Shown: piece after piece, positions 37,246 to 53,275 of the stretch
How positions within the stretch are numbered: the first letter of the stretch is position 1
Layout of the letters: each line of letters opens with the position of its first letter
Assembly (NCBI RefSeq): GCF_900168055.1
Contig: NZ_FUYS01000005.1
Span: forward strand, 62,001 to 126,000
DNA: 64,000 nucleotides
DNA from: Parapedobacter luteus
GTDB taxonomy: Bacteria > Bacteroidota > Bacteroidia > Sphingobacteriales > Sphingobacteriaceae
Direction: 5' to 3'
Notes under the pieces: model-generated
Databases searched by the model: none
What the model saw: only the letters and a program-made list of their open reading frames with translations
Told to the model about the DNA's origin: nothing
Translations under genes and position numbers: made by a program

Positions 37246-37320
37246 TACACCGGGCAAGGATACAGCAGCAACATCAAGCCGGCATTGACCTAAGATTAGC
37301 TTATTGTGAAGTTTTATACT

Positions 37321-38085: not shown

Positions 38086-38180
38086 ATGCCTTTTTAACGA
38101 CAAAACGGGTGCAGTGTTTTGGCAAAGGCAAAAGTTTTGGCGTTTTTTAACAATTCGATGAAGAAACGCTAACAGTGCCG

Positions 38181-38225
38181 AAAAAATGGCAGGAACCGAC
38201 CGCCAGTTTTTCGGTTGGCCTGCCA
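38181..38225 (-). terminator. Intrinsic terminator of the epimerase/ligase operon
   Basis: TGGCAGG and CCTGCCA (with inner ACCGA/TCGGT pairing) form a long stem followed, in the minus direction, by six T. It begins 31 bp after the epimerase stop. Confidence 0.75.
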
Positions 38226-38256
38226 AATGATACGTGGTCAATCTCCTCCTGCGTGT

Positions 38257-39354
38257 TTACACAATCACCTGTTCCAGACCCTTCAGGTATTGCTCATCCA
38301 CCGAAGCACCAATACCTGCTGCGTCTGGCAAAGTCATCAGATAGCGGTCATAGGTTGCTCCCCCGATAACCGGATCTTCCAATAAGCCGAGGAGCGCACT
38401 GTCGAGATCAAAAAAGTGTATGCCGGAGCAAGCGTAAGCCAGATGCAGATTGGCTGTCACCGCCAGCCGGCTCTCGAGCATGCCACCGATCATGCAGGCT
38501 ATTCGTTCTTGCTGGCAAACCTGATGTATCTTTAGCGCTTCGTGGATGCCGCCCGATTTCGCTAGCTTGATGTTGATGTAATCGCAGCTTCGGTTTCTGG
38601 CTAATTTTCTAGCGTCGCGGGCTGAATAACAGCTTTCGTCTGCCATGATTGGGATGGATACCGCCTGGCGCAAGGCGTATAACAATTCGTCATCCGAAGT
38701 ATGCAACGGCTGCTCACAAAACTCAACCTCTATTGCCTCCATTGCTTGGAGGGCGAAAATCGCCTGCCGAAATGTCCAGCCTTGGTTTGCATCGATCCGG
38801 ATCGCTATCTTTGGGCCTACTGCCTGCCGGATGGCGGCAATCTTTGCAACGTCCGTGTTGACATCGTTACCAACCTTGACCTTGATCGCCGTGGCACCCT
38901 GCGTAGCATACCGTCTGGCGGTAGCCACCATTGTGGCAAGCGGCCCTATCCCGATGGTTATGTCAGAGACTACTTGCCTTGCTTCACCGCCAAGGTAGCG
39001 GTAGAGTGGAAGCCCTGCATGCTTGGCCACTAAATCGAACAGCGCCATATCAAATGCGCTTTTCACCGTAGGGTTTTTTGCAGTATAGGCATCGAGCTCG
39101 GCAAGCCGCTCGGTAATATCCAGAGCATCCTTGCCCTTCCAAATGCGGGCAAAGGCCTGCGCCACGACGAAACAGGTATCCTGCGTCTCGCCAACAATAG
39201 CCGGAAACGCCGAGCACTCGCCGAAGCCTTCCATCCCCGTATCAGTAGCGATACGCACAAGTAGGTTTTGCGCATGATTCATCGTGCCGGTGGCTATGGT
39301 GAATGGTTCCATGCGGATGCTGAAGCGGTAGATCGTGATCGTGGTAATGTTCAT
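38257..39354 (-). CDS. Dipeptide epimerase (L-Ala-D/L-Glu epimerase type)
   Basis: Enolase-superfamily enzyme of 365 residues that inverts the alpha-carbon of the second residue in a dipeptide, classically L-Ala-D-Glu from peptidoglycan. The N-terminal capping domain (about 1-125) has the TMNHAQNLLVRI strand. In the barrel, Lys158-x-Lys160 (AIKVKVG), metal ligands Asp188 (IRIDANQGW), Glu214 (EFCEQPL) and Asp239 (IMADESC), and the second base Lys263 (INIKLAKSGG) follow the spacing known for the Bacillus enzyme. It sits 32 bp behind a D-Ala-D-Ala-ligase-like gene and shares a locus with peptidases, supporting a role in salvage of D-Glu-containing peptides. Substrate range within the family varies. 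Confidence 0.9.
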   Translation of the reverse strand: MNITTITIYRFSIRMEPFTIATGTMNHAQNLLVRIATDTGMEGFGECSAFPAIVGETQDTCFVVAQAFARIWKGKDALDITERLAELDAYTAKNPTVKSAFDMALFDLVAKHAGLPLYRYLGGEARQVVSDITIGIGPLATMVATARRYATQGATAIKVKVGNDVNTDVAKIAAIRQAVGPKIAIRIDANQGWTFRQAIFALQAMEAIEVEFCEQPLHTSDDELLYALRQAVSIPIMADESCYSARDARKLARNRSCDYINIKLAKSGGIHEALKIHQVCQQERIACMIGGMLESRLAVTANLHLAYACSGIHFFDLDSALLGLLEDPVIGGATYDRYLMTLPDAAGIGASVDEQYLKGLEQVIV

Positions 39355-39386
39355 GGCCGTAAATCGTATAGTAGATTATTAAATAT

Positions 39387-40409
39387 TTAAACGGTGATTT
39401 TTGGAACGAGGCGATAGGCCTCATCGATCAGCTGGCTGAAAAAGGCAGACACGTCAAATCCGGCAGCACGTAGCTGCTTAGGGATAAAGCTACTGTCCGT
39501 CTGCCCCGGTATCGTGTTGATTTCCAAAAAGAAAAATCTTCCGGAAACGCGCTCCTGAATGAAATCAATCCGTACGACTCCATGGCAGTCTAGCGCACGG
39601 AACACAGCAGAAACCAGTGTACGGAGCTCATCCAGCGCGGGCCCCGCAATCCGGCCCGGCGTAATGTCTACGGGACTACTAGACCCATATTTGGCATCGA
39701 AATCGAAAAACTCCCGCTCGGAAATCACTTCGCTGGGCGGCAGTACCTCTACCGCGCCATCGCGCAGAAAGGCGCCTACTGAGTACTCCGTGCCTTCGAT
39801 ATATTCCTCGACTATAATCTGCCCCGAATAGTCTACATCAAATGCGGTATCGAGTGCCGCCCAAGCCTCCTCCTCGTTGGCTGCCTTGGCCGTGCCGATG
39901 CTGCTGCCACCGGTGTTGGGCTTGATAAATACCGGATAGCGCAGTCCTGCGCCGCGGAGCTCCTCCAAGGCGCTCGATCCGGCATTAATAATCACTGATC
40001 TGGCGATATGGAGCCCAGGAAGGTGCGAGACCGCAGCTTTGGTAAAGAACTTATTCATCGTAAGTGCGGCAGCCTGTTGCCTGCACGAGGTATAGGGAAT
40101 TCCGGTTAGTTCGAGGTATCCCTGTATGCACCCGTTTTCGCCCGGCACACCGTGTATACAAATAAAGGCCACATCGAAATGAACGATCCCTTGGGGTAGT
40201 GCCAACGAAAAGTCATGCCGGTTTATGGCATGGCGCACCCCACCCTCGCTCTCATAATACCACCCCTCCGGAACGATGTAAATCAGGTATACCTCGAAGC
40301 GCTTGCGATCAAGCTTCTCGGCTACGTTGAGCGCGCTTTTGAAGGATATTCCGCGCTCTGGCGTGTATCCACCGGTTAATAAAGCTATTTTTTCTTTTTG
40401 CAAATCCAT
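39387..40409 (-). CDS. D-alanine-D-alanine-ligase-like ATP-grasp enzyme
   Basis: A 340-residue ATP-grasp ligase of the Ddl family. Visible motifs are IALLTGGYTPERGISF (N-terminal domain), FICIHGVPGENGCIQGYLELTGIPYT, FIKPNTGGSSIGTAKA (nucleotide loop), VEEYIEGTEYSVG and the metal site FLEINTIPGQT. Compared with housekeeping Ddl proteins, the second motif has GENG rather than GEDG and the following loop reads YTSCRQQAAALTMNK. With a dipeptide epimerase and D-peptide hydrolases around it, it may be a specialised paralogue that remakes or modifies D-amino-acid dipeptides. I cannot exclude that it is the ordinary Ddl. ATG 40409 is preceded by TAACTTTG (complement 40413-40420), which would make the mRNA nearly leaderless. 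Confidence 0.85.
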   Translation of the reverse strand: MDLQKEKIALLTGGYTPERGISFKSALNVAEKLDRKRFEVYLIYIVPEGWYYESEGGVRHAINRHDFSLALPQGIVHFDVAFICIHGVPGENGCIQGYLELTGIPYTSCRQQAAALTMNKFFTKAAVSHLPGLHIARSVIINAGSSALEELRGAGLRYPVFIKPNTGGSSIGTAKAANEEEAWAALDTAFDVDYSGQIIVEEYIEGTEYSVGAFLRDGAVEVLPPSEVISEREFFDFDAKYGSSSPVDITPGRIAGPALDELRTLVSAVFRALDCHGVVRIDFIQERVSGRFFFLEINTIPGQTDSSFIPKQLRAAGFDVSAFFSQLIDEAYRLVPKITV

Positions 40410-40517
40410 GCACAAAGTTACCGGACTGTTCGAGGTTCTCGCTATGCATTGGCTACCCACCTGTAAACATTTTTTATGCAAATAATGGCCACTGCTGGGC
40501 CGCTACGTGGTGGCGCA

Positions 40518-40579
40518 TAATATTGGTTTAGTACCCCGTAACTATTGCATATCACGGCGCTGTGAGTTGCTTATTATTG
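40518..40579 (+). promoter_or_regulatory. Candidate AraC-type operator and promoter of the DUF819 gene
   Basis: TAATATTGGTTTA (40518-40530) followed after 7 bp by GTAA occurs again before the serine hydrolase gene at 42964, with all 13 bases and the GTAA spacing identical. TATTATTG (40572-40579), one mismatch from the -7 consensus, starts exactly 54 bp after the motif start, as at the second site. Confidence 0.5.
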
Positions 40580-40583
40580 CAAC

Positions 40584-41828
40584 ATGAATAACGCGATTTT
40601 CGAACAGGATGCTGTCGTCCTTGCCTTCCTCCTGATCATTCTTGCCGCCGTATTGTATACTGCCAATAGCCCGCTTCCGTTCTTCAGGAAATTCTACCAG
40701 GTCGTGCCGCCTATTCTACTTTGTTATTTTTTGCCGGGTATATTAAATACGGCAGGTGTTATCTCGGGCGACAATTCGGCCGTATACACCGTAGCGTCCC
40801 AATTTCTGCTGCCGGCCAGCCTCATCTTGCTCATCATGGGCGTAGACCTTAAAGAGATCTGGAAACTACGCAAAAAAGCAGGACTCATGTTTATTGCCGC
40901 CGCACTTGGGATAGTCATCGGCGGACCGCTGGCCGTCATCATCGGCAAGGCGCTGCTTCCCGGCGTCATTGTAGGGGGTGAAGGAGAGGACGCCTCCTGG
41001 CGGGGACTGGGCACCGTGGCGGCAAGCTGGACTGGCGGAAGCGCAAATATGGCGGCAATGTATGAGGTATTCAAGCCCAGTGCGCGCTTATATTCCGGCA
41101 TGATTGCCTTGGATGTGCTGATATCGAACATCTGGCTAGCGACACTTTTGTACGGGGTACACAAAAAGAAAAAAATTAACCAATGGCTGCGCGCTGACGA
41201 CGGGGATACAGCCGGACTGGAGCAACAATTTAAAAACACCAACACCGTTGAGCGGCGTATGGCGACCATGCCTGAGATGATGTTGATTTTGGCGGTAGGG
41301 CTCGGCGCAACCGGCTTGGCTCATCTATTGATTGGCAAAATCGTGCCCTGGATTAAGGCTGTTGCACCCCAACTAGCCAGGTTCAACCTCACCAACGAGT
41401 TCCTTTGGCTGATCATCCTGACCACGACATTTGGTGTTCTGCTGTCGTTTACCCGGGCGAGAAATTTGGAACGCATCGGATCTACTACAGTAGGCAACGT
41501 CTTCCTGTATATCCTGATTGCATCGATAGGCATGAAGATGAATATCCTCAACGTCTTTGACACGCCGGGGCTTATCGTCATCGGCTTTATCTGGATTGCC
41601 ATCCATGCGGTCGTCATTTTTCTAGTGGCCCGAATGTTCAAAATCAGCTACTTTTTTCTTGCCGTGGCCAGCGAAGCCAGCGTCGGAGGCGTACCTACCG
41701 CATCGGCGGTGGCGGCGGGATTCAGTCCAGCACTGGTGCCGGTAGCTGTATTGCTTTCTGTAATGGGCTATGCGGTAGGAAACTATGCCGGATACATCTG
41801 TGGGATGTTGATGCAATGGGTCTGCTGA
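40584..41828 (+). CDS. DUF819-family inner-membrane protein, probable transporter
   Basis: A 414-residue protein with about 11-12 hydrophobic segments, among them AFLLIILAAVLYTA near the start, LMFIAAALGIVIGGPLAVIIG in the middle and VAVLLSVMGYAVGNYAGYICGML at the end. Conserved DUF819 features are the GTVAASWTGGSANMAA block and the late SEASVGGVPTASAVAAGF block, an internal pseudo-repeat typical of transport proteins. The founding Bacillus protein is YjcL, next to a dipeptide epimerase relative in that genome as I recall. Here it is divergent from the epimerase/ligase pair and upstream of the AraC gene, so import of a dipeptide or amino acid is a fair inference. Transport has not been shown for the family as far as I know. 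Confidence 0.88.
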   Translation: MNNAIFEQDAVVLAFLLIILAAVLYTANSPLPFFRKFYQVVPPILLCYFLPGILNTAGVISGDNSAVYTVASQFLLPASLILLIMGVDLKEIWKLRKKAGLMFIAAALGIVIGGPLAVIIGKALLPGVIVGGEGEDASWRGLGTVAASWTGGSANMAAMYEVFKPSARLYSGMIALDVLISNIWLATLLYGVHKKKKINQWLRADDGDTAGLEQQFKNTNTVERRMATMPEMMLILAVGLGATGLAHLLIGKIVPWIKAVAPQLARFNLTNEFLWLIILTTTFGVLLSFTRARNLERIGSTTVGNVFLYILIASIGMKMNILNVFDTPGLIVIGFIWIAIHAVVIFLVARMFKISYFFLAVASEASVGGVPTASAVAAGFSPALVPVAVLLSVMGYAVGNYAGYICGMLMQWVC

Positions 41829-41833
41829 AACCC

Positions 41834-41863
41834 TTGTGTAATATTGAAAAAAAAGTACCTTTG
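41834..41863 (+). promoter_or_regulatory. Promoter of the AraC-family gene
   Basis: TTG at 41834-41836, a 19-bp spacer and TACCTTTG at 41856-41863 match the Bacteroidota consensus. The leader to the ATG at 41951 is about 80 nt. Confidence 0.6.
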
Positions 41864-41950
41864 TATCTGTAGCAGCCTCGTCCGACCCTGTGGATGCGGC
41901 TAACCAATTAATAGCTGTAGCGACTAAGTGGGAGCTAATGAAAGAGAAAC

Positions 41951-42847
41951 ATGCGTGTATTACATCAAATGACACCATATGAGCCTGAGGAGCATTCAAT
42001 TGTCTTTCAGGACACGTACCCCGTGCCTTATCTCCACAACCACCGCGAAATGCAAATTATTTGGGTAAAACGTGGTACAGGTAACGCCGTAATCGGCAAT
42101 CATGTGCAGCCTTTCAAACCTGGGGAGATTTACTTGGTCGGATCCAATCAGCCTCACCTGTTTGAGGCCTCCGACGGCAACCAGGAGTCCATTAATATGC
42201 TTTGCTTGTACATCGACCACCGGAGGGCATTTTCGGGCATCTCGAGCTACCTCCCCGAGTTGTCCGTCGTGTCTAATTTTTTGAAGGAAGCCGATGCAGG
42301 GCTCCAAGTGCCCGCAGCCTATGTAAAACTCGCTTCCCAAGCGATGACCCATAGCCATACCAAACTTGGACTTGACCGGTTCATGGCCTTTCTCCAACTG
42401 GTCAGATTATTCATTGAAATCAAAGCAAAGGTGGATTGGAAGCCCTTGTCGGCCGTCCTTAATGTGGAGTCGCCAACCGTATCGGATCGGCTGAATACCG
42501 TGTACCGCTATTCGCTGGAGCATTATATGGATCAAATTGCGCTGGAAGATGTCGCCAGACTTGCCTGCATGACTCCCAATGCATTCTGCTCATATTTTAA
42601 AAAATACACGCGCAAAACGTATTTTTCGTTTTTGAACGACCTTCGTATACGTAAAGCGTGCGAAAAATTACTAAGCGGAAACTACCCGACCATTGCATCA
42701 GTCGCTTATGATTGCGGTTTTATTAATACCATTACCTTTAATCGCGTATTTCGGCGCGCATTGGGCATGACACCGAGTGAATACATCCAAAAGTACGCGG
42801 TCAAAGGGAAAATCATCGAGGTTTTTTCCGAGCACGATTTTTATTGA
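41951..42847 (+). CDS. AraC-family transcriptional regulator of the peptide locus
   Basis: A 298-residue regulator with an N-terminal cupin ligand-binding domain (about 10-95: VPYLHNHREMQIIWVKRGTGNAVIGNHVQPFKPGEIYLVGSNQPHLF) and a C-terminal double HTH (about 190-290: ALEDVARLACMTPNAFCSYFKKYTRKTYFSFL ... ASVAYDCGFINTITFNRVFRRALGMTPSEY). It lies between the DUF819 gene and the serine hydrolase/SusCD operon, each preceded by the same 13-bp sequence, and is the natural candidate to bind it. Its own promoter is consensus, which would give steady expression. A strong terminator follows the gene. Confidence 0.92.
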   Translation: MRVLHQMTPYEPEEHSIVFQDTYPVPYLHNHREMQIIWVKRGTGNAVIGNHVQPFKPGEIYLVGSNQPHLFEASDGNQESINMLCLYIDHRRAFSGISSYLPELSVVSNFLKEADAGLQVPAAYVKLASQAMTHSHTKLGLDRFMAFLQLVRLFIEIKAKVDWKPLSAVLNVESPTVSDRLNTVYRYSLEHYMDQIALEDVARLACMTPNAFCSYFKKYTRKTYFSFLNDLRIRKACEKLLSGNYPTIASVAYDCGFINTITFNRVFRRALGMTPSEYIQKYAVKGKIIEVFSEHDFY

Positions 42848-42879
42848 CCCATTTTTCTATATGCAAGTAGTGTAATACG

Positions 42880-42910
42880 GGTGCTTTTTTGACAAAAGCA
42901 CCTTTTTTTT
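42880..42910 (+). terminator. Intrinsic terminator of the AraC gene
   Basis: GGTGCTTTT and AAAAGCACC form a perfect 9-bp stem with a 5-nt loop, followed by eight T. Confidence 0.85.
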
Positions 42911-42963
42911 ACTTCAGCCACCCCATTTTTTCACCGTTTTGCATCGCCAATGTAGGGCCTAGT

Positions 42964-43025
42964 TAATATTGGTTTATTGGTCAGTAATGGTGGTAAAATG
43001 AACTTTCATCAATTGGTTAATTTTG
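42964..43025 (+). promoter_or_regulatory. Candidate AraC-type operator and promoter of the hydrolase-SusCD operon
   Basis: TAATATTGGTTTA (42964-42976) plus GTAA after 7 bp is identical to the copy at 40518. A perfect -7 TAATTTTG (43018-43025) starts 54 bp after the motif. No -33 TTTG is seen, fitting activator dependence. Confidence 0.55.
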
Positions 43026-43082
43026 TGTTATCGTTTTTTGAGAACCGCATTGCGGGCACTCCTAATCGACTAAATACTGATT

Positions 43083-44726
43083 ATGAAGAAAAAAAATTGG
43101 GCGGTAGCCCTCTGCTTCTTCTGGTTTCACATGGTGAATGCACAGACCGGATTGGAGCGATCGCTGGGACAGGCGTTTGACAAATTGCTGGCCTCCCGCG
43201 ACGTTAAAGCGCCCGGTGCAGTCATCATTGCCAGCATGGCAGGCAAGCCGTTTTACGAAAAAGCCGTGGGGCTGGCCAGCCGCGAACTGGGCACACCACT
43301 CACTACCGATGCCGTTTTCGAAGCCGCATCCGTTTCCAAACAATTTACGGCAACAGCGGTGCTGAAATTAATCGAGTCGGGCCGTTTGACGCTGGAAGAC
43401 GATATCCGGACTTATATACCCGAGCTTCCCGACTACGGTCAAACGATGACCATCAGGCACCTGCTCACGATGACCAGCGGCCTTCGCGACTGGCGCAATA
43501 TAACCTACCTCATGGGAAGGCCAACCTACGAACACGTGTATACCCAAGACGAGGCGCTGGAGATCATTAGCGAACAACAGGGGCTCAACTTCCTGCCGGG
43601 CGAACAGTATTCTTATTCCAATAGCAATTATGACCTGCTGGCTATCCTCGTGTCACGCCTCGCGGATGATACCTTTATCGACTACGCAACCGAAAATGTA
43701 TTGCGGCCGGTGCAATTTGAATACGCCCATTGGCGCGGCAACCCCTACACCATCGTGCCGAACAAGGCGCAGCCCTATGATAAGGCTGCAGGCAAATACG
43801 TATTGAGCCCGGTAGTGGAGAAAACCCACGGCGCAGCAGGCATGCTGGTGACGGCAAAAGACCTTATAAAATGGGCAGACTTCTGGGCGGTGGACGGATT
43901 TGGCAGCACGCTTAGCACAATGAGGACCCAACAGGGTGTGCTGAACAATGGCGACACCATCGCCTATAGCTGCGGCGGCGTATGGGTACGATCACTTAGC
44001 GGATACACCGAGGTGGCGCATTCGGGATTGTTAGGCGGCTTCCGCGCGTGGATTGCGCATTATCCGGCACTCGGCCTTTCGGTGGCGTACCTGACCAACG
44101 ATAAGACGTTCGCGCTCTCGGAAGTACGTGGGTGTGTAGAAAAAGTTTTGCAGTCCCGAGAAACAGGCCACCCTGCACCGGCCAAACAACCGATATCGGC
44201 CAGCCTCATCCGACAGCTGGCCGGTCATTACAGAAATACAAAAGGCTTTCACGTAGCAGAACTTAAACAACAGGGCGAAGTGCTCAAGCTCGGTGCCGAC
44301 ACGATCTACAGCCTAACGGCGGATACCCTGCTAATTGGCGAAACGCGCTTTGTGATCAGGGATGACACGACCCTTGAGCAGGTCGGCCAAGACGAAACCA
44401 TCGTCTATAAAAAATGTGCCTTCCCCGCCAATCTCTCCAATAGGCTGACCGACTTCTCGGGCACCTACACCTGCTTAGATATCGATTTGGCGCTGGAGTT
44501 TGTGGTTGAAGCCGGTAAACTTAAGGTTTACCGCAAGCCGTATGACGGCACCGTTCTATACCCTGCTTACGAAGACGGTGGCGAAGTGGGCTTTTATGGG
44601 TTTTTAACGGGGCTGAAGACCGTCTTTCGATTCAGTAAAGACCAATATGGCCAACGGGTACTATACGTGAGTATACCGAGGGCCGAAAACTTTAGATTTG
44701 CGTATCAAATGGCGGAAAACCGCTAG
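43083..44726 (+). CDS. Exported serine hydrolase, class C beta-lactamase/DD-peptidase family (first of three)
   Basis: A 547-residue periplasmic protein. A signal peptide (ALCFFWFHMVNAQT) is followed by the penicillin-binding-type catalytic domain (about 25-365) with the nucleophile in S83-V-S-K86, the second motif Y178-S-N180 and a late HSGLLGGF box in place of KTG. A C-terminal beta-rich extension (about 380-545) resembles the lipocalin-like tails of D-aminopeptidases. The family includes D-aminopeptidases, DD-carboxypeptidases and esterases. It opens the operon with SusC, SusD, another such hydrolase and a membrane dipeptidase, which makes a peptide with D-residues the best guess for the substrate. 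Confidence 0.88.
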   Translation: MKKKNWAVALCFFWFHMVNAQTGLERSLGQAFDKLLASRDVKAPGAVIIASMAGKPFYEKAVGLASRELGTPLTTDAVFEAASVSKQFTATAVLKLIESGRLTLEDDIRTYIPELPDYGQTMTIRHLLTMTSGLRDWRNITYLMGRPTYEHVYTQDEALEIISEQQGLNFLPGEQYSYSNSNYDLLAILVSRLADDTFIDYATENVLRPVQFEYAHWRGNPYTIVPNKAQPYDKAAGKYVLSPVVEKTHGAAGMLVTAKDLIKWADFWAVDGFGSTLSTMRTQQGVLNNGDTIAYSCGGVWVRSLSGYTEVAHSGLLGGFRAWIAHYPALGLSVAYLTNDKTFALSEVRGCVEKVLQSRETGHPAPAKQPISASLIRQLAGHYRNTKGFHVAELKQQGEVLKLGADTIYSLTADTLLIGETRFVIRDDTTLEQVGQDETIVYKKCAFPANLSNRLTDFSGTYTCLDIDLALEFVVEAGKLKVYRKPYDGTVLYPAYEDGGEVGFYGFLTGLKTVFRFSKDQYGQRVLYVSIPRAENFRFAYQMAENR

Positions 44727-44755
44727 CGCCATAACGGAAATAACAAGTAAAACAG

Positions 44756-47700
44756 ATGAAGATAAGCAAACGAATCAGGGAGACCTGCTCCCTTGGCATG
44801 CTATTGCTATGCCTAATCATGACCTGGAGTGTATTCCTGCCTGACCCGGTAAACGCGCAGCAGACCGTGACTGGTACGGTGGTCAGCAACGTGGACGGCG
44901 CCCCCCTCCCTGGTGTAACGGTATCCCTCAAGCAGGGTATCGCCAACAGCATCACTGACGACAATGGCTACTTCCGGATATCGGTGCCGGATGGCAGCGC
45001 GGTGATTGTCTTTGCCTACCTGGGCTATGACAGTCAGGAAGTACCCGTGCAAAACCGGCAGTCACTGCAAGTAAGGCTCCAGCAGAGCGAACACCTGATC
45101 GACGAAGTACAGATAACGGTACCCTACGGTAATCAGACGCGCCGTTCGTTTACCGGATCAGCCACTACCGTGCGAGGGGAAGATCTAGCCGACAGGCCTC
45201 GCACGTCATTCCAAACATCGTTGCAGGGCAACGTGGCTGGCCTCCAGGTCATGGAGTCAACAGGCCAGCCAGGTGCCGCTCCTACGGTACGCCTACGCGG
45301 AATTACCTCTTTCGATGCCAACAACGCGCCGCTATATGTGGTAGACGGCGTGCCGATGCTTACGCAAAACGTATCGGGGCTGGCTTTCTCATCCAATTCC
45401 GGAGCAGGCATTAACCCCAATGACATTGAATCGGTGACAGTGCTCAAAGACGCCTCCGCGACGTCAATCTACGGTTCGCAAGCAGCTAATGGCGTGATCA
45501 TGATCACAACCAAAAATGGCAAGGCGGGACGTACGGACATCAACTTCTCGGCCAACTATGGTATCAACCGGATATCCACCGGCGAGCGCAATAAGCCGTT
45601 GAGTACCAGCGAAATGACCGAACTGCTCGTAGAGGGCGTAATCAACAGCGAAATCAATGACGCGCTGCGCGCCATCACCACGCCCGAAGCCGCATACGAA
45701 TACCTGCTGAATCAGGGATTGAACCCAAACATTAATACAGATTGGTATGATGTGATTGTCCAGACGGGTCAATACCAGCAATATAACCTCTCGGCGTCAG
45801 GTGGTACAGAAAAAACCCGGTTTTTCCTGTCGGGCAACTACTATACGCAGGATGCCGTCACCAAAGGGCAGGGATTTGAGCGGAAAACCGGTCGCCTGAA
45901 TATCCAGCATCAGGCAAATGAACGCTTATCGTTCAATGGCCGGATTTCGGCCGCTGCACAAAAGTTGAATACCATCCCCGGCGCCGGCACCGGCCAAAAC
46001 CCCATGCGCTCGCTGAACCGGCTCGTGCCCTGGCTGGCCCCATACGATGAAAATGGTGGGTATAACATGTCCATCACCCACAATCCCGAACTAGTCCGCC
46101 TTGAAAACCGCTATGAAACGAATATTTACCAGGCTGTGGGCAACGTGAGTGCAGAATATAAGCTGTTAAAGTCGCTCGCAATAGAATCCCGGGCGGGTAT
46201 CGATTTCAGCTTCTCCGATGACTTTCGCTACTGGAGCCCGCTATCGCGCGACGGCATGGGCTCAAACGGACGCGGCATGCAGTATGATCGTACCTGGAAC
46301 AACTGGACGGTGACCAACCTGCTTAAGTTCAATGAGCACTTCAGCGACTGGGGCATCAACGTGACACTAGGGCAGGAGGCCAGCAGACGTAACCTAAAAA
46401 GTGTGAGCACCCAAGCCAATAACTATGTCGCCGAAGACCTGTACACCTTAGCCAACACATCAGAACCCTACATCGCCTGGAGCTCGGAATCGCATGCCAG
46501 TCTGGCAAGCTATTTCTTGATCGGTAACTTTGACTATGCCGAAAAATATTACCTCAACGCTTCCGTGCGGCGGGACGGCTCCTCCCGGTTTGGCCAAGAT
46601 GTCCGCTACGGTAATTTCTGGTCGATCGGCCTTGCGTGGAATCTGCACAAGGAGGGTTTCCTGCAAGGTATCGACGTGATCAACCAGCTGAAATTGCGCG
46701 CGAGCATCGGCACAAGCGGCAACCAGCTGGGCGACTACTACGGCGCGCTGGGTTATTACTCGACCAACCAAAATTACCTCAACCTTCCGGGGTTTGCCAT
46801 CGGTCAAATAGAAAGCGGCTCACTACGCTGGGAACGCAACCGCCCGCTGGACGTCGGCCTGGAGTTTGCCTTGTTCAACAACCGGCTGGATGGTGCGGTA
46901 GATTGGTATAGTCGGCAGACTTCAGACCTGATCCAAGACATGCCTATATCGCATACCAACGGCGTGACCAGCCTCAACTACAATGTGGGCGGCATGAAAA
47001 ACTATGGCGTCGAGATTGCGCTGAATTCGCGCAACATCGTCAGCAAGGACGGGCAAGGGTTTGCATGGTCTACCAATTTCAATATCACGACGCAGCACAA
47101 TAAGGTCACCGCTTATCAAGACGGCCGAAGGGTCGAAGGTCGGTTTCTGCGTGAGGTGGGTGGCGATTTTTATCAATTTTACCTCCGAGAATATGCTGGC
47201 GTAAACCCCCAAACCGGAGAAGCCCTGTGGTATACCAACAGTAGTCGCGACGCAACCACAACGGCCTACAACGAGGCCGCACCTTACAAGCTCGAAGGAA
47301 AAAGTGCCCTCGCAGACTTTTTCGGTGGTATCACCAATACGTTCTCCTACAAAGGAGTGTCCCTCTCAGCCCTCGTGTATTTCAACTGGGGCGGGTCCGT
47401 CTACGACGTCTGGGGTCAATATACGCAGTCTGATGGGTCGGCAAGACTCAGTGAGACCGGCGCCATTTCGCGAAAAGCTTACGAAAACCGGTGGCAACAG
47501 CCGGGAGACGATGCCGCCTATCCCAAAATCGTGTACGGCGGTAGCCAGTCAGGGCTTACTGGCCAGGAATCTACACGTTTCCTCTATGATGGAAGCTACA
47601 TTCGCCTACGCGATGTCACGCTGAGCTATCAGCTTCCTGCGGATCAGCTCCGGCTGCCCTTCCGCAGCACCACGGTCTATGTCCGCGGTAACAACTTGTA

Positions 47701-47818
47701 TACGTACGTCAAAGATGATCTGCTGCCCTTCGATCCAGAGACGGATATTTCCGGATTGCTGGATCAAAACCTTCCGATAGCGCGGCAATTTGTATTCGGC
47801 ATCAATGTAAGATTTTAA
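44756..47818 (+). CDS. SusC-like TonB-dependent transporter (peptide locus)
   Basis: A 1020-residue outer-membrane transporter. The signal (LLLCLIMTWSVFLPDPVNAQQ) leads into a CarboxypepD_reg-like domain (about 37-115, VTGTVVSNVDGAPLPGVTVSLKQG) and a plug opening LIDEVQITVPYGNQTRRSFTGSAT. VDGVPMLTQN and VTVLKDASATSIYGSQAANGVIMITTK are the later plug signatures; the barrel ends QFVFGINVRF. There is no STN domain and no sigma/FecR pair, in agreement with AraC control. Its operon has three peptidase-type enzymes and no carbohydrate-active enzyme, so oligopeptides are the likely cargo, as for RagA-type transporters. Confidence 0.94.
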   Translation: MKISKRIRETCSLGMLLLCLIMTWSVFLPDPVNAQQTVTGTVVSNVDGAPLPGVTVSLKQGIANSITDDNGYFRISVPDGSAVIVFAYLGYDSQEVPVQNRQSLQVRLQQSEHLIDEVQITVPYGNQTRRSFTGSATTVRGEDLADRPRTSFQTSLQGNVAGLQVMESTGQPGAAPTVRLRGITSFDANNAPLYVVDGVPMLTQNVSGLAFSSNSGAGINPNDIESVTVLKDASATSIYGSQAANGVIMITTKNGKAGRTDINFSANYGINRISTGERNKPLSTSEMTELLVEGVINSEINDALRAITTPEAAYEYLLNQGLNPNINTDWYDVIVQTGQYQQYNLSASGGTEKTRFFLSGNYYTQDAVTKGQGFERKTGRLNIQHQANERLSFNGRISAAAQKLNTIPGAGTGQNPMRSLNRLVPWLAPYDENGGYNMSITHNPELVRLENRYETNIYQAVGNVSAEYKLLKSLAIESRAGIDFSFSDDFRYWSPLSRDGMGSNGRGMQYDRTWNNWTVTNLLKFNEHFSDWGINVTLGQEASRRNLKSVSTQANNYVAEDLYTLANTSEPYIAWSSESHASLASYFLIGNFDYAEKYYLNASVRRDGSSRFGQDVRYGNFWSIGLAWNLHKEGFLQGIDVINQLKLRASIGTSGNQLGDYYGALGYYSTNQNYLNLPGFAIGQIESGSLRWERNRPLDVGLEFALFNNRLDGAVDWYSRQTSDLIQDMPISHTNGVTSLNYNVGGMKNYGVEIALNSRNIVSKDGQGFAWSTNFNITTQHNKVTAYQDGRRVEGRFLREVGGDFYQFYLREYAGVNPQTGEALWYTNSSRDATTTAYNEAAPYKLEGKSALADFFGGITNTFSYKGVSLSALVYFNWGGSVYDVWGQYTQSDGSARLSETGAISRKAYENRWQQPGDDAAYPKIVYGGSQSGLTGQESTRFLYDGSYIRLRDVTLSYQLPADQLRLPFRSTTVYVRGNNLYTYVKDDLLPFDPETDISGLLDQNLPIARQFVFGINVRF

Positions 47819-47866
47819 ATCATGCAGCGCCATTCAACTAAAATAATCATGCATCACAACCCCAAC

Positions 47867-49294
47867 ATGACCATGCCTAAACCATTCTGGAACTCCCTCG
47901 TGCTGAGCTGCTGCCTGCTGCTTGGTTGCGGCGACAGCTTCCTGGACGAACAGAACCCCCAATCGGTGGGATTTGACCACATCAAAGACGTTGAGTCACT
48001 TACGGCGGCTACCACAGGTGTATATAGCAATTTCAACGCGGTCAACTATTATGGCCGTACGTTTATCGTCACACCTGAGCTCATCGGAGACAACACCTTC
48101 ATTAGCTTCAGGAACGGCGGGCGGTATCTCAATCACGACCGGTTTGCTGTAACCAACGGCGACGGGGCGGTCACGGGCGCATGGACCGCGATGTACCGCG
48201 TGGTAGCCAACGCCAACTTGGCACTCTCCGCAGCGGAAGCTATCGACTGGCCTGTGGGCCAACAGCAAGAGGCTAATCAACTGGTGGGCGAGCTGCTCGC
48301 TTGCCGGGCATTGGCCTACTTTGACCTGCAACGCTTTTTCGCTCAGCCGTATAACTTCACCGCCGATGCCGCCCACCCGGGCGTGCCATTGGTAACAGGG
48401 CACAGTAGCGATATCATCTCACCGTCAAGGGCCACCACAGCTGAAGTGTACCAGCAGATTGTGGCCGACTTGCTTCGAGCCGAGCAGCTCCTGCAGCCCC
48501 AAGTGAAAGACGGCTATTTCGGCAGGTATGCCGCACAGGCGCTGCTCGCCAAAGTGTACCTCTACATGGAAGATTGGCAGAATGCCGAAAAGTATGCGAC
48601 ATTGGTCATCGAGCAGGCCCCCTATTCGCTACTGACACGCGATGTTTACGTGGGCAGCTGGGCCGAGAAGTTCAGCAGTGAGTCTATCTTGGAAATCGGA
48701 TTTACTGAAACCAGCAATAATGGAGCAAACAGCATCGGCTACCTTACCGAACAGGCAGCGTATGGCGAATTGCTGGCCACGAAAGACCTCTATGACAGCT
48801 ATGCCGAGGGCGATGTACGCAAGACCCTCTTTGAGCCGGGAGACCGTGTAGGCGGTGAATCTGACACCTATTTTATCCGCAAGTACCCGCGCGGTGCCAC
48901 GACTCGCGATGACAATGCCAAGGTCTTGCGGCTTTCTGAAATATACTTGATCCGGGCCGAAGCCCGCGCCGAAATGGGTAAAACCGATGCTTCGAAAAAT
49001 CCCGGGGCACAAGAGGACCTGATGACCATCATACACCGCGCCAATCCCGATGCTTCTGAAGTCTCTGCCGTGGGCGATGCATTGGTATTGCTAATACTTG
49101 ACGAACGGCGTAGAGAACTAGCTGTCGAAGGCAACCGCTTGTTTGATCTGAACCGCAAGAAACAGCCACTCGTGCACCGCGGACACGATGCAGCCACGGA
49201 GTATACGTACCCGAACAACCGGTTTATCATGCCGATACCGTATAGCGAGATCAACGCAAATCCCAATGTGGAACAGAATCCGGGGTGGAACTGA
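47867..49294 (+). CDS. SusD/RagB-like lipoprotein (peptide locus)
   Basis: A substrate-binding surface lipoprotein of about 475 residues. I prefer ATG 47867 because it gives a compact lipoprotein signal MTMPKPFWNSLVLSCCLLLGC; in-frame ATGs at 47822 (3 bp after the susC stop) and 47849 are possible. The N-terminal FLDEQNPQSVGFDHIKDVESL, the central QLVGELLACRALAYFDLQRFFAQPY, and the C-terminal LRLSEIYLIRAEARAEMGK...ILDERRRELAVEGNRLFDLNRK and NPNVEQNPGW are standard SusD/RagB marks. RagB-like proteins can bind peptides, so the family does not argue against a peptide cargo. Confidence 0.93.
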   Translation: MTMPKPFWNSLVLSCCLLLGCGDSFLDEQNPQSVGFDHIKDVESLTAATTGVYSNFNAVNYYGRTFIVTPELIGDNTFISFRNGGRYLNHDRFAVTNGDGAVTGAWTAMYRVVANANLALSAAEAIDWPVGQQQEANQLVGELLACRALAYFDLQRFFAQPYNFTADAAHPGVPLVTGHSSDIISPSRATTAEVYQQIVADLLRAEQLLQPQVKDGYFGRYAAQALLAKVYLYMEDWQNAEKYATLVIEQAPYSLLTRDVYVGSWAEKFSSESILEIGFTETSNNGANSIGYLTEQAAYGELLATKDLYDSYAEGDVRKTLFEPGDRVGGESDTYFIRKYPRGATTRDDNAKVLRLSEIYLIRAEARAEMGKTDASKNPGAQEDLMTIIHRANPDASEVSAVGDALVLLILDERRRELAVEGNRLFDLNRKKQPLVHRGHDAATEYTYPNNRFIMPIPYSEINANPNVEQNPGWN

Positions 49295-49316
49295 CATTCT
49301 TGATTGGCCAAATACT

Positions 49317-50537
49317 ATGGATATGACAACAACACATCTCAAACAAGGCGTTATCCGAATAAACTGGTGGGCGATTACCTGCCTGATCTGCTGGTTCATG
49401 GCAACCTCGTGCCAGAAAAACGAAATGGAGCCAGCGCTTCCCGTGATTGGTGGCGAGGAAACGTCGATGACGACCGCTTCCCTTTCGGCCATCGATGATA
49501 GCGTGGCCAACTTTATGACCCGGTTTGACATCCCCGGGGCTAGCGTAGCCATTACCAAAAATGGTAAGCTCGTATATGCAAAGGGCTATGGATATGCCGA
49601 TCAGGCTACGTCAACGTTAGTAGACACCAGCAGCCTGTTTCGCATTGCAAGCTTGTCTAAATTCGTCACAGCTGTGGGAATCATGACGCTGATTGAAGAT
49701 GGACTGCTGGATATGGACGATACGGTCTTCGGCAGTAGCGGTGTACTTGAAAATGATTTTTTCTCCGGCACCTATCCGGCCTATGTAGCGGATATTACCA
49801 TAAAAAATCTCTTGCACCACGAATGCGGCGGCTGGGGCAATTCTAGCGCCGACCCCGCCTTTGCCCAGCCCACGCTCGACGTGGACCAGCTGATATCTTG
49901 GGCGATTGCCAACAGACCGCTCATCACGCAGCCAGGTACCCAGCATGACTACTCTAACCTCGGCTTCCAGATACTGGGGCGTATTATCGAAAAAGTAAGC
50001 GGAGAGGATTACGTCGACTACATACAGGACCACGTACTCACGCCCGCGGGAATCACCAATATGCAGATAGGCGGCACCAAGTTGGCCGAGAAAAAGCCCA
50101 ATGAGGTGACGTACTATGGGCAAAGCGGCCAAAACCCCTATGGCTACGCCAACGGAGTGATTAGTAGGCTGGACGCCGCCGGCGGATGGATTGCCTCTGC
50201 AATAGACCTGATGCGGCTGATGGTACATGTAGACGGTTTCAGCACGGTGCCCGACTTTTTGAGCCCGGCAACGATAACGCTGATGGCTACACCGTCACCA
50301 AACTCTAGTTATGCATGCGGCATCCGCATCAGCGCGGGCGCCCAAAACTGGTTCCATGGCGGTTCACTGTCCGGTACACGAACCTGGATGGTCCGCGCTA
50401 CCAATGGGTATAGCTGGGCAATATTGCTAAATTCAAGGAGTACGCATGCCGACTTTAGCACGCATCTGGACAGGCGCCTGGTATGGCCCGCGATAAACAA
50501 CCCCAGTACGCCCTGGCCTACGGTTGATTTGTTTTGA
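49317..50537 (+). CDS. Serine hydrolase lipoprotein, class C beta-lactamase/DD-peptidase family (second)
   Basis: A 406-residue enzyme. The start at 49317 (MDMTTTHLKQG) gives a lipoprotein signal (CLICWFMATSCQK), so it is probably membrane-anchored. Catalytic motifs are S112-L-S-K115 (IASLSKFVTAVG), Y212-S-N (QHDYSNLGFQIL), and a late WFHGGSLSG in the KTG position; LLHHECGGWGN is the conserved loop near the active site. Unlike the other two hydrolases in the operon it has no long C-terminal extension. It begins 23 bp after the SusD stop and precedes the dipeptidase gene by 17 bp. Confidence 0.88.
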   Translation: MDMTTTHLKQGVIRINWWAITCLICWFMATSCQKNEMEPALPVIGGEETSMTTASLSAIDDSVANFMTRFDIPGASVAITKNGKLVYAKGYGYADQATSTLVDTSSLFRIASLSKFVTAVGIMTLIEDGLLDMDDTVFGSSGVLENDFFSGTYPAYVADITIKNLLHHECGGWGNSSADPAFAQPTLDVDQLISWAIANRPLITQPGTQHDYSNLGFQILGRIIEKVSGEDYVDYIQDHVLTPAGITNMQIGGTKLAEKKPNEVTYYGQSGQNPYGYANGVISRLDAAGGWIASAIDLMRLMVHVDGFSTVPDFLSPATITLMATPSPNSSYACGIRISAGAQNWFHGGSLSGTRTWMVRATNGYSWAILLNSRSTHADFSTHLDRRLVWPAINNPSTPWPTVDLF

Positions 50538-50553
50538 TGTATAGCAAATTTGA

Positions 50554-51672
50554 ATGATGCTGATTGACCTGCACAACGATGCCATACCACGGCTAATCAT
50601 GGACGGCCACGCCGACCTTAGCGTGCGGAATAGTCGTGGAGCGACCGATTTGGTGCGGCTGCGCGAAGGCGGCGTACAGGCGCAGACCTTCGTCATGTTT
50701 TGCGATGGCCGCTACCGCGGCGCTCAGGCTCATGCCTATGCGATGGCAATGATGGACCGCTTCGACCAACTGATGGACCGTGCTCCTCAACTTGTCAAAC
50801 AGGCTCACCGCGCAGCGGAGATCCCAGCCATCGTCGCCACAGGAAAAATCGCAGCACTGCTGGCCGTGGAAGGAGGTCATATGATAGCCGATAGCTTAGA
50901 AAACCTTGAAACGTTTTGCCAACGCGGAATGGTGTACCTCACCCTCACCTGGAACAACAGCACAGCTTGGGCTACCTCTGCCCGCGATGAGGTAATGGGT
51001 AATATACCAAGGGACAAAAAGGGCCTCAGTGCCTTGGGCGTAGACATCGTGACACGGATGAACGAACTTGGCGCGGTGGCCGACCTTTCACACGCCGGAG
51101 AACAGACGTTCTATGATGTGATCCGTACAACCCGAAAACCCGTAATGGCCAGCCACAGCAATGCCTACAGCCTGGCACCCCACTACCGCAACCTGAAGGA
51201 CGAACAGTTGGCAGCACTGCGTGAAAACAGCGGCCTGGTGGGCATCAATTTTTATGCGGGCTTTGTGGATACTGCCTATCATACGCGGTTCGCCGCACTC
51301 ATACAGGCGCATCAAGACCTCGCCGATTCGCTGGGGAGCGAACGGTTACGCCAAGGCAATGTAGACGCCCGGACCGCTTTTCTGGAAGCACTACCGCCCA
51401 ATGAAACACAAAACCTGCTCCCGGACCTCGACCGCCTGATTGACCACGTCGACCACATCGTGGCGATAGCGGGCATAGACCATGTCGGCATTGGAAGCGA
51501 TTTCGATGGCGCGGAAGCCTACCCCAAAGGCCTTCATGACGTAACGGCTTACCCGATCCTACTGGCACGGCTGAAGGCCCGTGGATATACCGCCGAAATG
51601 TTGGCCAAGCTTACTGGAACAAATACGCTCCGCGTGCTTTCAGGTAAATCGCACTTAATAGATGAACAATAA
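50554..51672 (+). CDS. Membrane dipeptidase family M19 (renal dipeptidase-like)
   Basis: A 372-residue binuclear zinc dipeptidase. The first metal motif is H7-N-D9 (LIDLHNDAIPRL), the bridging Glu106 lies in LLAVEGGHMI, and later ligands are in ASHSNAYSLAPHYRNLKD and IDHVGIGSDFDGA. M19 enzymes accept dipeptides with a D-residue at the C-terminal side, including D-Ala-D-Ala and L-Ala-D-Glu types. I see no signal peptide, so the protein should act in the cytoplasm after uptake of dipeptides. Its last codons overlap the next gene by 11 bp. Confidence 0.92.
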   Translation: MMLIDLHNDAIPRLIMDGHADLSVRNSRGATDLVRLREGGVQAQTFVMFCDGRYRGAQAHAYAMAMMDRFDQLMDRAPQLVKQAHRAAEIPAIVATGKIAALLAVEGGHMIADSLENLETFCQRGMVYLTLTWNNSTAWATSARDEVMGNIPRDKKGLSALGVDIVTRMNELGAVADLSHAGEQTFYDVIRTTRKPVMASHSNAYSLAPHYRNLKDEQLAALRENSGLVGINFYAGFVDTAYHTRFAALIQAHQDLADSLGSERLRQGNVDARTAFLEALPPNETQNLLPDLDRLIDHVDHIVAIAGIDHVGIGSDFDGAEAYPKGLHDVTAYPILLARLKARGYTAEMLAKLTGTNTLRVLSGKSHLIDEQ

Positions 51673-53275
51673 TTGGAAAACCATGAAAGGAAGACATTTA
51701 GGTTATACCGTGTGGCTGCTGTGCTGCTTGCTTGCACTGCCACGACTTGAATTAAAAGGACAACCCGGGCTGGGGTTTGATGAATATGTGGCAAAGGTGC
51801 TCGATGGATTTCAGGTACCCGGCATGGCCATTGCCGTGGTGAAGGATGGCCGGACGGTCCTGTCAACGGGTTACGGCGTCAAGACGCTGGGCTCCACAGA
51901 TGCTGTAGATGCCCATACCTTGTTTCCGATAGCCTCCAATACAAAAGCGTTTACCGCCACTGCGCTGGCGCTGCTCGTCGAAGAGGGGACAATCCGGTGG
52001 GATGAACCTGTCATTCGCTACATGCCGTGGTTTCGCATGGCCGATCCATGGGTTACAGAGGCGCTCACCGTGCGCGATTTGCTGGTACATCGTAGCGGTA
52101 TAGCGCCTTACGCAGGCGACCTCCTGCAATTCCCGCCATCGACCTACAGCCGGAAGGAAGTCGTAGAAAAACTGCGGTATCTCCCGTTGACAACGAGTTT
52201 CAGGAGTACTTATGCCTACGACAACGTGTTGTACCTTGCAGCGGGCCAATTGATCGAGGAGGTCTCCGGCATGACATGGGAGCAGTTTGTACAGACGCGC
52301 ATCCTTAACGTGGTCGGCATGACGGAGTCGATCCCTTATATCGCTGCCTTTGATAGCCTGGAAAATGTGGCGACTTCGCATATCCCAATAGACGGCACGG
52401 TGAAACCATTATACACGTTTTCGCGCCAATCCATTGCCAACCTGACAAACCCGGCTGGCGGTATGCTCTCAAATGCGACCGATATGGCCCGGTGGCTGAC
52501 GACCCAGCTGGACTCGGGCAAGACGCCCAGGGGCGAACGGTTGTTCAGCCCAAAAACCGCGCGGGAGCTTTGGACGGGCGTAACGCCTATGCCTATACCG
52601 CAGGCGCCGGAATGGCTTGCGCCTGCACAGCAGGATTTCACCAGTTATGCGCTGGGTTTCCGCACATTTACCTACCGGGGCATCAAAGCCGTGTCACACG
52701 GCGGCGCACTGGATGGATTTGTGTCCCACGTGATTTTTTTCCCTTCACTGGACCTCGGCATCGCTGTGCTCACAAACCAGCAATGCACAAATGCTTACCA
52801 AGCGGTAATCAACCGCATTGTGGATGACTACATCGATAGTCCGCCCTTTGACTGGCTTTCGGCATACCTTCGGGCCGAAAAACAACGCCTGCAACGATTG
52901 GATGAACTGGACAGCGAAACGGCAACAAAAAGGGCCACCGGTACATCTCCATCGCTGGATCTTGGGCAGTATACTGGGAAATACCGTGACGATTGGTATG
53001 GAGATATTTCCATCGCAAATACAGATAGCGGCCTGCGAATCCGCTTCGAACACTCGCCGCTGCTGACAGGCAGGCTTGAACATTGGCAGTACGATACGTT
53101 TGTCGCCATATGGGATACGCCCGAGCTGCGCGCAGATGCGTTTGTGACGTTTATGCTGGATCACCAGGGAAAAGTGGCCCGAATAACGATGACGGCCGTG
53201 TCTGCCCGCACGGACGTCAGCTTTGACTTTCACGATCTCGACATCCGGCCGGTCCCGGCCCCGAAGACTGATTGA
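51662..53275 (+). CDS. Exported serine hydrolase, class C beta-lactamase/DD-peptidase family (third)
   Basis: A 537-residue periplasmic enzyme with signal TVWLLCCLLALPRLELKGQ, catalytic S92-N-T-K95 (PIASNTKAFTATAL), a YxN-type Y-D-N (STYAYDNVLYLAAGQLI), and SHGGALDGF in the KTG position. A C-terminal DUF3471-like beta domain (about 425-530, YTGKYRDDWYGDISIANTDSGLRI) completes it. The start at 51662 overlaps the dipeptidase stop, suggesting coupled translation; ATG 51683 is an alternative. It ends the peptide operon, only 3 bp from the end of the convergent dehydrogenase gene, leaving no room for a separate terminator. Confidence 0.88.
   Translation: MNNNWKTMKGRHLGYTVWLLCCLLALPRLELKGQPGLGFDEYVAKVLDGFQVPGMAIAVVKDGRTVLSTGYGVKTLGSTDAVDAHTLFPIASNTKAFTATALALLVEEGTIRWDEPVIRYMPWFRMADPWVTEALTVRDLLVHRSGIAPYAGDLLQFPPSTYSRKEVVEKLRYLPLTTSFRSTYAYDNVLYLAAGQLIEEVSGMTWEQFVQTRILNVVGMTESIPYIAAFDSLENVATSHIPIDGTVKPLYTFSRQSIANLTNPAGGMLSNATDMARWLTTQLDSGKTPRGERLFSPKTARELWTGVTPMPIPQAPEWLAPAQQDFTSYALGFRTFTYRGIKAVSHGGALDGFVSHVIFFPSLDLGIAVLTNQQCTNAYQAVINRIVDDYIDSPPFDWLSAYLRAEKQRLQRLDELDSETATKRATGTSPSLDLGQYTGKYRDDWYGDISIANTDSGLRIRFEHSPLLTGRLEHWQYDTFVAIWDTPELRADAFVTFMLDHQGKVARITMTAVSARTDVSFDFHDLDIRPVPAPKTD

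Follow-up and report, generated by a model that had tools for sequence, protein, structure and literature searches.

The window analysed here is a stretch of 64,000 nucleotides from Parapedobacter luteus (positions 62,001 to 126,000 of NZ_FUYS01000005.1; contig G000:C11 of the 4.83-Mb genome), in which a SusC/SusD-type importer lies within a run of ten genes between positions 38257 and 53275. A preliminary description of this DNA had named the families of the ten genes and had proposed that they form a coherent importer system for peptides with D-residues. All ten open reading frames (ORFs) were present and open, and their families matched those proposed, as assigned by Pfam for nine of the ten genes (SusC was outside that scan) and by NCBIfam for all ten (Table 1). 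The genes form three units: the ligase and epimerase genes on the minus strand; the divergent DUF819 and AraC genes, followed by a terminator-like stem; and the run S12a-SusC-SusD-S12b-M19-S12c, with a spacing of 29, 3, 22, 16 and -11 bp. Terminator-like sites in the region were not above the number in shuffled sequences (14 versus 17.1). The ligase most likely starts at the ATG at 40409 (MDLQKEK...) and not at the TTG at 40481 of the longest ORF, and the S12b start was placed at 49317. Signal-peptide-like and lipoprotein-like N-termini were judged by eye throughout, not by a signal-peptide program.

Table 1. Positions of the features of the locus in the window and of proteins in related loci (the latter with the locus number before the position).
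Feature	Position	Strand	Basis
Dipeptide epimerase (EPI), enolase superfamily	38257..39354	-	PF13378/PF02746 (MR_MLE); no signal peptide by eye
Accessory D-Ala-D-Ala ligase paralogue	39387..40409	-	PF07478/PF01820, TIGR01205; no signal peptide by eye
DUF819 inner-membrane carrier (putative)	40584..41828	+	PF05684, 266.8 bits
AraC-type regulator, cupin-like ligand domain	41951..42847	+	PF12833/PF02311
Intrinsic-terminator-like stem	42879..42903	+	10 pairs, T-rich tail, 3' of the AraC gene; consensus match only
S12a serine hydrolase	43083..44726	+	PF00144; signal-peptide-like N-terminus by eye
SusC TonB-dependent transporter	44756..47818	+	TIGR04056, 756 bits (cut-off 368); clade placement
SusD lipoprotein lid	47822..49294	+	PF07980/PF14322; lipoprotein-like start by eye
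S12b serine hydrolase	49317..50537	+	PF00144; lipoprotein-like N-terminus by eye
M19 (renal-dipeptidase type) dipeptidase	50554..51672	+	PF01244, 318 bits; no signal peptide by eye
S12c serine hydrolase with DUF3471 C-terminal domain	51662..53275	+	PF00144 and PF11954; signal-peptide-like N-terminus by eye
Chitinophaga epimerases	L254:12762-13781, L255:19072-20109		
Glu-racemase-like proteins	L268:18401-19864, L271:18726-20261, L263:15740-17269		

The importer genes, 3 bp apart, matched TIGR04056 and TIGR04057, together with PF07980 and PF14322, above cut-off. The reported absence of carbohydrate-active enzymes was borne out: no such family was reported for the ten genes by the general Pfam and NCBIfam scans, which did not include a dedicated carbohydrate-active enzyme library, and in this respect the locus is not a polysaccharide utilization locus. 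Genome-wide matches amounted to 79 SusD, 11 S12, three M19, two D-Ala-D-Ala ligase (Ddl), two DUF819 and (at E 1e-20) two epimerase genes, and the 15-kb locus holds three S12 genes and one each of M19, Ddl, DUF819 and epimerase. The chance of such co-location was about 1e-12 after allowing for the 79 SusD loci, a naive value that assumes independent placement, and comparative conservation is the stronger test.

For this comparison, genome contigs were scanned with five SusC sequences through two short peptide patterns, so that loci with those patterns were within reach, and the best 80 of 235 loci were taken. In a quick maximum-likelihood tree, in which close species are not independent, the window SusC and those of 25 loci together made up a clade of 26 rows, with a support of 92 in the Shimodaira-Hasegawa-like approximate likelihood ratio test (SH-aLRT). 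The members come from Sphingobacteriaceae, Chitinophagaceae, Flavobacteriaceae and Cyclobacteriaceae, with an unplaced Cytophagales locus, L269, and with L302, filed under Pseudomonadota. The L302 contig is filed under Thalassovita, as a Pseudomonadota metagenome-assembled genome (MAG), and is probably a misbinned Bacteroidota contig.

By BLAST, at least two of the enzyme families were found in 24 of the 26 clade rows (window included) and in none of the 55 other loci; the exceptions in the clade were L258, with two S12 genes, and L269, with none. On the tree, the label of at least two enzymes required three changes compared to 21.1 in shuffles, and none of 500 shuffles was as low. A screen with hidden Markov models (HMMs) found at least two of seven D-residue-peptide enzyme families in 23 of 25 clade loci and in one of 55 others (L313). 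By family, the counts in the 25 clade loci and the 55 others, respectively, were 24 and 0 for S12, 16 and 0 for the epimerase, 10 and 0 for DUF819, 9 and 5 for deacylase-like amidohydrolases, 9 and 1 for Glu-racemase-like proteins, 4 and 1 for M19, and 2 and 0 for Ddl. Control loci were screened by BLAST and then with HMMs made from the clade members' own proteins, which biases the counts towards clade-like sequences; because of this lean, and because the loci are not independent, the tree test is the fairer of the two. Both the HMM counts and the tree test show that the degrading enzymes are kept with the SusC clade, and the locus is a real, conserved system and not a product of chance. The analysed stretch of L276 (P. 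tibetensis) ends before the epimerase and ligase genes, both of which were present when the cluster itself was read. Three loci outside the clade, L309, L317 and L313, each had at least two deacylase-like amidohydrolase matches, L313 also having an M19 match; these are possibly a second origin of SusC/SusD loci for D-peptides.

The window type of SusC is rare. At E <1e-290, five of 399 genomes of the family had it, the window's genome among them, at six places altogether, of which P. composti holds two; none of the other genomes among the 395 of the class sample had it, two candidates per genome being scored in both scans. Five clusters were read: those of the window, Parapedobacter tibetensis, P. 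composti, Sphingobacterium phlebotomi and a Pedobacter MAG. The P. tibetensis cluster contains all ten genes as well as extra S12 and M19 copies. The P. composti cluster has no DUF819 gene; it holds an amino-acid permease gene (PF13520, L235:2269-3762) and a gene that, by eye, is ornithine-cyclodeaminase-like. The Pedobacter MAG cluster also has no DUF819 gene and carries an oligopeptide transporter (OPT) gene in its run (PF03169, L218:8880-10838). The S. phlebotomi cluster has no ligase gene, and one Ddl was found in that genome. Gene order varies among the genera, and the AraC copies of the four other clusters are 40-63% identical to that of the window. A lack of conserved linkage between the epimerase, DUF819 and SusC/SusD genes had been named as grounds for refuting the proposal. 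The linkage does recur, in several families and with some parts moved or exchanged, and the replacement of parts by unrelated equivalents points to a shared function.

The same comparison was used to judge the borders of the locus. The flanking DJ-1/PfpI gene (37384-38241) and aldehyde dehydrogenase gene (53279-54931) had no match in the other four clusters and were rejected as parts. An extracytoplasmic function (ECF) sigma factor/FecR/SusC set at 32317-37326 on the minus strand was also rejected; its P. tibetensis counterpart lies on the same side in the opposite orientation, at 28-33% identity. The Pedobacter cluster has an LdcA-like S66 gene on its upstream side, which was rejected as well, since it was alone among the 25 clade loci and such genes occurred in three loci outside the clade.

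The catalytic motifs SxxK, YxN and HxG were present in all three S12 proteins: SVSK/YSN/HSG in S12a, SLSK/YSN/HGG in S12b and SNTK/YDN/HGG in S12c. The best solved chains of S12a include 4gdn, 2qmi, 1cef, 4y7p and 1ei5. The NCBIfam D-aminopeptidase model scored 102.5, 65.5 and 64.4 of 443 bits, and the solved relatives include D-peptidases, Flp and carboxylesterases. The best solved chain of both S12a and S12b was 4gdn, which we take to be Flp, the Staphylococcus aureus FmtA-like protein, and from this match it might be argued that the locus takes up D-alanylated polymers of the teichoic-acid type, the S12 enzymes removing D-Ala esters. Such a role seems to us very improbable: none of the ten genes belongs to a phosphodiesterase, glycosidase or glycerol-phosphate family, and the epimerase and the M19 enzyme would need a peptide. 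The M19 protein itself has the motifs HND, EGGH, SHS, HYRN and DFDG, which presumably form its binuclear metal site, and its best solved chain was 3id7.

Weak matches of the S12 proteins to class C beta-lactamase models, and the second Ddl gene in the genome, could instead suggest cell-wall defence or remodelling, in which the S12 proteins would be beta-lactamases or DD-carboxypeptidases and the extra ligase would guard the D-Ala-D-Ala supply. The beta-lactamase scores were far under their cut-offs (for example, 87 of 415 bits), and an importer, an AraC regulator and inner-membrane carriers would be unexpected in a defence system. The ligase residue Tyr216, which we take to mark a D-Ala rather than a D-lactate type, is kept, and defence is considered very unlikely.

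The ligase is a second copy besides the genome's other Ddl, G000:C15:106739-107743. It reached the TIGR01205 cut-off (248.9 bits compared to 245.65) and did not reach PRK01966.1-3 (275.7 of 310). In a tree with flagged long branches, the window ligase's own among them, it and the ligases of three other clusters formed a group (95/92) separate from the housekeeping copies. At 15 of 17 checked positions, Tyr216 included, it was identical to Escherichia coli DdlB; at the remaining two (181 Glu, 282 Phe), the housekeeping copies do not match E. coli either. The sequence thus retains the ATP-grasp residues and the Tyr216 of a D-Ala-D-Ala ligase. Two genomes of the same genus have, elsewhere, another epimerase copy with another SusC and a further Ddl paralogue some 17-18 kb from the epimerase (G004:C1:1271600-1308334 and G005:C19:204140-240300; L057/L058, L065/L066); sulfatase-like neighbours were named there by eye.

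According to the preliminary description, the dipeptidase, epimerase and ligase interconvert L-Ala-D-Glu or D-Ala-D-Ala; these dipeptides stand at opposite ends of the stem peptide of peptidoglycan. The window protein has the two catalytic lysines, three metal ligands and DxD motif of a dipeptide epimerase, and the residues K158, K160, K263, D188/E214/D239 and D316xD318 were kept in all 41 orthologue rows (window included; the more distant rows G000p_13, G001_22, G061_16 and G071_19 were left out). At positions 24 and 26 it has Gly and Met, and Gly24 and Met, Val or Ile26 were each found in 41 of 41 orthologues, with Arg at neither position. We take Arg24 (in Bacillus subtilis YkfB) or Arg26 (in the Bacteroides 3iji type) to bind the Glu side chain; Arg24 alone does not discriminate, since 3iji and the epimerases of the sister subclade described below also lack it and have Arg26. 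The Ala-Glu NCBIfam equivalogs were missed widely (219.1 of 500 and 126.5 of 343 bits). On these grounds the L-Ala-D-Glu part of the claim is less well supported for the window enzyme and fits the sister loci better, and the D-Ala-D-Ala part was retained. The best solved chain was 3q45 (42% identity; Gly24 and Leu26), which together with 3q4d we take to be a Cytophaga hutchinsonii dipeptide epimerase that epimerises D-Ala-D-Ala, an activity reportedly described by Lukk et al. 2012 (PNAS).

Orthologues at 48-62% identity were found in 35 of 61 genomes of the same family (own included). The neighbours of stand-alone epimerase genes include, for instance, a gltB-like gene and, in two cases by eye, a PBP4-like D-Ala-D-Ala carboxypeptidase gene (G034:C103 and G050:C11; L096/L097, L094/L095). 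The genome's other epimerase is of the Arg26 type and lies on contig C23 (G000:C23:145800-147298; L116/L117), where it adjoins an NlpC/P60 gene whose product has a signal-like start. Within the window's SusC subclade, all nine epimerases read had no Arg at 24 and 26, with Met or Leu at 26: the five cluster copies (window, P. composti, P. tibetensis, S. phlebotomi and the Pedobacter MAG), one of the same type in Segetibacter, and three in Chitinophaga (L254, L255, L256). The Chitinophaga enzymes are of the Arg26 lineage, being 44-47% identical to the genome's other epimerase, with Leu or Met replacing Arg. Since they derive from the Arg26 type, two epimerase lineages in the subclade share the lack of the Glu-type Arg, and their sequences make a convergent change of specificity possible. 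Gly24 with Leu or Ile26 is likewise found in 3q45 and 3jva. The word "hutchinsonii" is absent from the available parts of PMC5808125 and PMC8142540, and nothing on Arg24 was found in PMC3605383.

The epimerase also bears on whether the D-residue is incidental. Its gene is widespread without SusC/SusD, and it is 42% identical to 3jva, presumably an epimerase of broad range on hydrophobic dipeptides, with which it shares Gly24 and a hydrophobic residue at 26. RagAB-type SusC/SusD pairs take up oligopeptides, and RagB was among the fold matches: the predicted SusD model, with a predicted local distance difference test score (pLDDT) of 82, matched RagB at Z 37 and 3myv best, at Z 48.2, and the SusC profile had RagA as one of its best solved matches. 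These observations would suit a broad uptake of ordinary hydrophobic L-peptides, in which the epimerase handles occasional D-residues. Against this, no L-specific endopeptidase family is found among the ten genes, and the S12 genes in 24 of 25 clade loci, with the racemase and deacylase genes of the sister loci, indicate D-chemistry; we regard general L-peptide uptake as quite unlikely. The SusC/SusD fold was rejected as a pointer to peptides or glycans, the best matches being a mixture of Joint Center for Structural Genomics (JCSG) SusD entries, glycan binders and RagB.

A further explanation keeps the D-chemistry and changes the substrate to N-acyl-D-amino acids or non-ribosomal (lipo)peptides, with S12 enzymes akin to ClbP or alkaline D-peptidase and with the enolase-superfamily enzyme acting as an N-acyl-amino-acid racemase. 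S12a and S12c did match ClbP chains, all three S12 proteins matched an alkaline D-peptidase chain, and deacylase-like amidohydrolases are present in nine of 25 clade loci. In addition, the two sister epimerases scanned scored best with DgcA, an N-acetyl-D-Glu racemase, although below its cut-off (219.7 and 203.1 of 400). The window epimerase, in contrast, favoured the Ala-Glu epimerase model over DgcA (219 versus 184 bits) and kept the DxD motif, presumably the site for the dipeptide N-terminus, though DgcA-like enzymes are not thereby excluded. The accessory ligase and the M19 enzyme suit dipeptides, and there is no deacylase among the ten genes of the window; overall, scavenging of N-acylated compounds is judged unlikely.

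The AlphaFold model of the DUF819 protein (pLDDT 86) matched the CPA/AT elevator fold. With VIA-align, AspT was the best match (Z 24.2, 358 aligned, root-mean-square deviation [rmsd] 4.1), tied with CitS (Z 23.5, 376 aligned, rmsd 4.9), and Foldseek alone ranked CitS first. AspT and CitS are carriers of amino acids or carboxylates, and because the model matches them the protein's cargo may be single amino acids or dipeptides, with larger peptides less likely. By analogy, the one pointer to dipeptide transport would be the OPT and amino-acid permease genes in the clusters without DUF819. The neighbours of 18 other DUF819 genes were mixed, three of these genes adjoining an epimerase match (30-31%). 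In the parts of the literature available, PMC8396727 lists DUF819 under CPA/AT, modelled on 5a1s, and PMC12671195 places it beside an M15 peptidase in Neisseria, with no substrate given.

The clade splits into ten rows with the window and 16 rows from Flavobacteriaceae and Cyclobacteriaceae with L302 and L269. In the 15 sister loci examined (L261-L264, L266-L268, L270-L274, L295, L302 and L327), S12 genes were found in all 15 and an epimerase in nine, and no ligase or M19 match was found. All nine sister epimerases have Arg26, and their identity to the other epimerase of the window's genome is 47-56%; one of them was searched against solved structures, and its best relative was the Bacteroides thetaiotaomicron protein 3iji, which bears Arg26. 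Glu-racemase-like and deacylase-like amidohydrolase genes occur in the same nine of 15 loci, only three of which also have the epimerase. The three Glu-racemase-like proteins read (Table 1) are about 490-510 residues long. Their N-termini are signal- or lipoprotein-like, and inspection by eye showed the motifs ACNT and GCTHYP, which we take to be MurI-type cysteine motifs; their NCBIfam scores, 97 to 108 bits, did not reach the cut-off of 147, and from sequence they are apparently exported Glu racemases. The best NCBIfam match of the two deacylase-like proteins scanned, also below cut-off, was PRK09061, presumably a D-glutamate deacylase. Ahead of SusC, at the place held by AraC in the window, there is an ECF sigma match in 15 of 15 sister loci and a FecR match in 13 of 15. 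The sister loci thus share the SusC clade and the S12 genes with the window and differ from it in their Arg26 epimerases and ECF/FecR regulators, the window having AraC, the ligase and M19 instead; L-Ala-D-Glu chemistry fits them better than it fits the window locus.

Taken together, the linkage, the intact motifs and the association with the SusC clade uphold the proposal of a coherent SusC/SusD system for peptides with D-residues. Judged from sequence, its function is probably nutrient scavenging of short D-residue peptides, most likely from the D-Ala end of peptidoglycan stem peptides, and peptidoglycan is preferred as the source mainly because L-Ala-D-Glu and D-Ala-D-Ala represent both ends of the stem peptide. 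SusC/SusD would import oligopeptides, the exported S12 enzymes would trim them at D-residues, and DUF819, or an OPT or amino-acid permease in the relatives, would move the products inward. In the cytosol, a dipeptide with a C-terminal D-residue could be hydrolysed by M19, or its C-terminal residue could be flipped by the epimerase so that ordinary peptidases finish the work. The accessory ligase might join released D-Ala into D-Ala-D-Ala again, or make good what M19 and the epimerase drain from the cell's own D-Ala-D-Ala, and AraC would sense a product. A wider form of this proposal is that peptidoglycan stem peptides are the dedicated substrate of a SusC/SusD clade found in at least four Bacteroidota families, with a D-Ala-D-Ala version in the window subclade (non-Arg epimerases, accessory ligase, M19) and an L-Ala-D-Glu version in the sister loci (an epimerase with Arg26, a Glu racemase that is apparently exported, and a D-Glu deacylase-like enzyme); this we advance tentatively, as a serious possibility on which our own judgement falls slightly to the doubtful side.

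Several observations weigh against the scavenging of D-residue peptides by the window locus. The S12 proteins resemble Flp and carboxylesterases roughly as closely as they do D-peptidases, and they reached no NCBIfam cut-off shown. The M19 proteins of P. composti, the Pedobacter MAG and one of the two in P. tibetensis have signal- or lipoprotein-like starts, so a cytosolic M19 is not general. At 42% identity to 3q45, specificity can differ from the activity ascribed to that enzyme. In a 100-genome sample, 36 of 39 epimerase neighbourhoods had no such SusC/SusD cluster, and the epimerase therefore seems to predate the locus and to have been recruited into it. The clade support of 92 comes from a quick method only, and the clade member L269 carries none of the enzymes. 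Finally, no NlpC/P60 or Amidase_3 gene was found near the five Sphingobacteriaceae clusters, the nearest on the same contig being about 120 kb away (other amidase families were not searched), and this genome's NlpC/P60 protein had no match in the 25 clade loci; the NlpC/P60 gene beside the epimerase that marks a muropeptide recycling module is thus missing from the locus.

SusC/SusD loci are read as glycan systems almost by reflex. That relatives of the importer are packaged with D-peptide enzymes in several families suggests a little-known feeding on cell-wall-like peptides. If the proposal is correct, environmental Bacteroidota farm the cell-wall peptides of other bacteria through a peptide counterpart of polysaccharide utilization loci, and the clade would provide a sequence marker for the recycling of environmental D-amino acids and cell-wall peptides. 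It would also suggest roles for the DUF819 carrier and the apparently exported Glu-racemase-like protein. Why a locus for catabolism should include a D-Ala-D-Ala ligase of its own is a puzzle. No description of D-peptide or muropeptide SusC/SusD loci was found in literature searches that left most subscription papers outside their scope, and the available part of PMC11658791 holds nothing on peptides in SusC/SusD systems.

Compared with known systems, the locus shares with RagAB of Porphyromonas gingivalis a SusC/SusD-type importer thought to take peptides. This likeness is limited, because levan and other glycan systems match the window SusC and SusD at least as well as RagAB does, so the fold does not tell the substrate; RagAB is not known to be linked to an epimerase, a ligase or an S12 set. 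The closest solved enzyme, 3q45, presumably from C. hutchinsonii, shares 42% identity and Gly24 with the window epimerase. E. coli YcjG and B. subtilis YkfB, the latter beside the endopeptidase YkfC, are enolase-superfamily epimerases with the same catalytic residues as the window enzyme. The L-Ala-D/L-Glu epimerase reaction and the lysines K162 and K268 are given in the available part of PMC5808125, and the epimerase-NlpC/P60 pair on contig C23 resembles the ykfB-ykfC pair as described there. The window system differs from those of YcjG and YkfB in having neither an NlpC/P60 partner nor Arg24 or Arg26, and in having a SusC/SusD importer.

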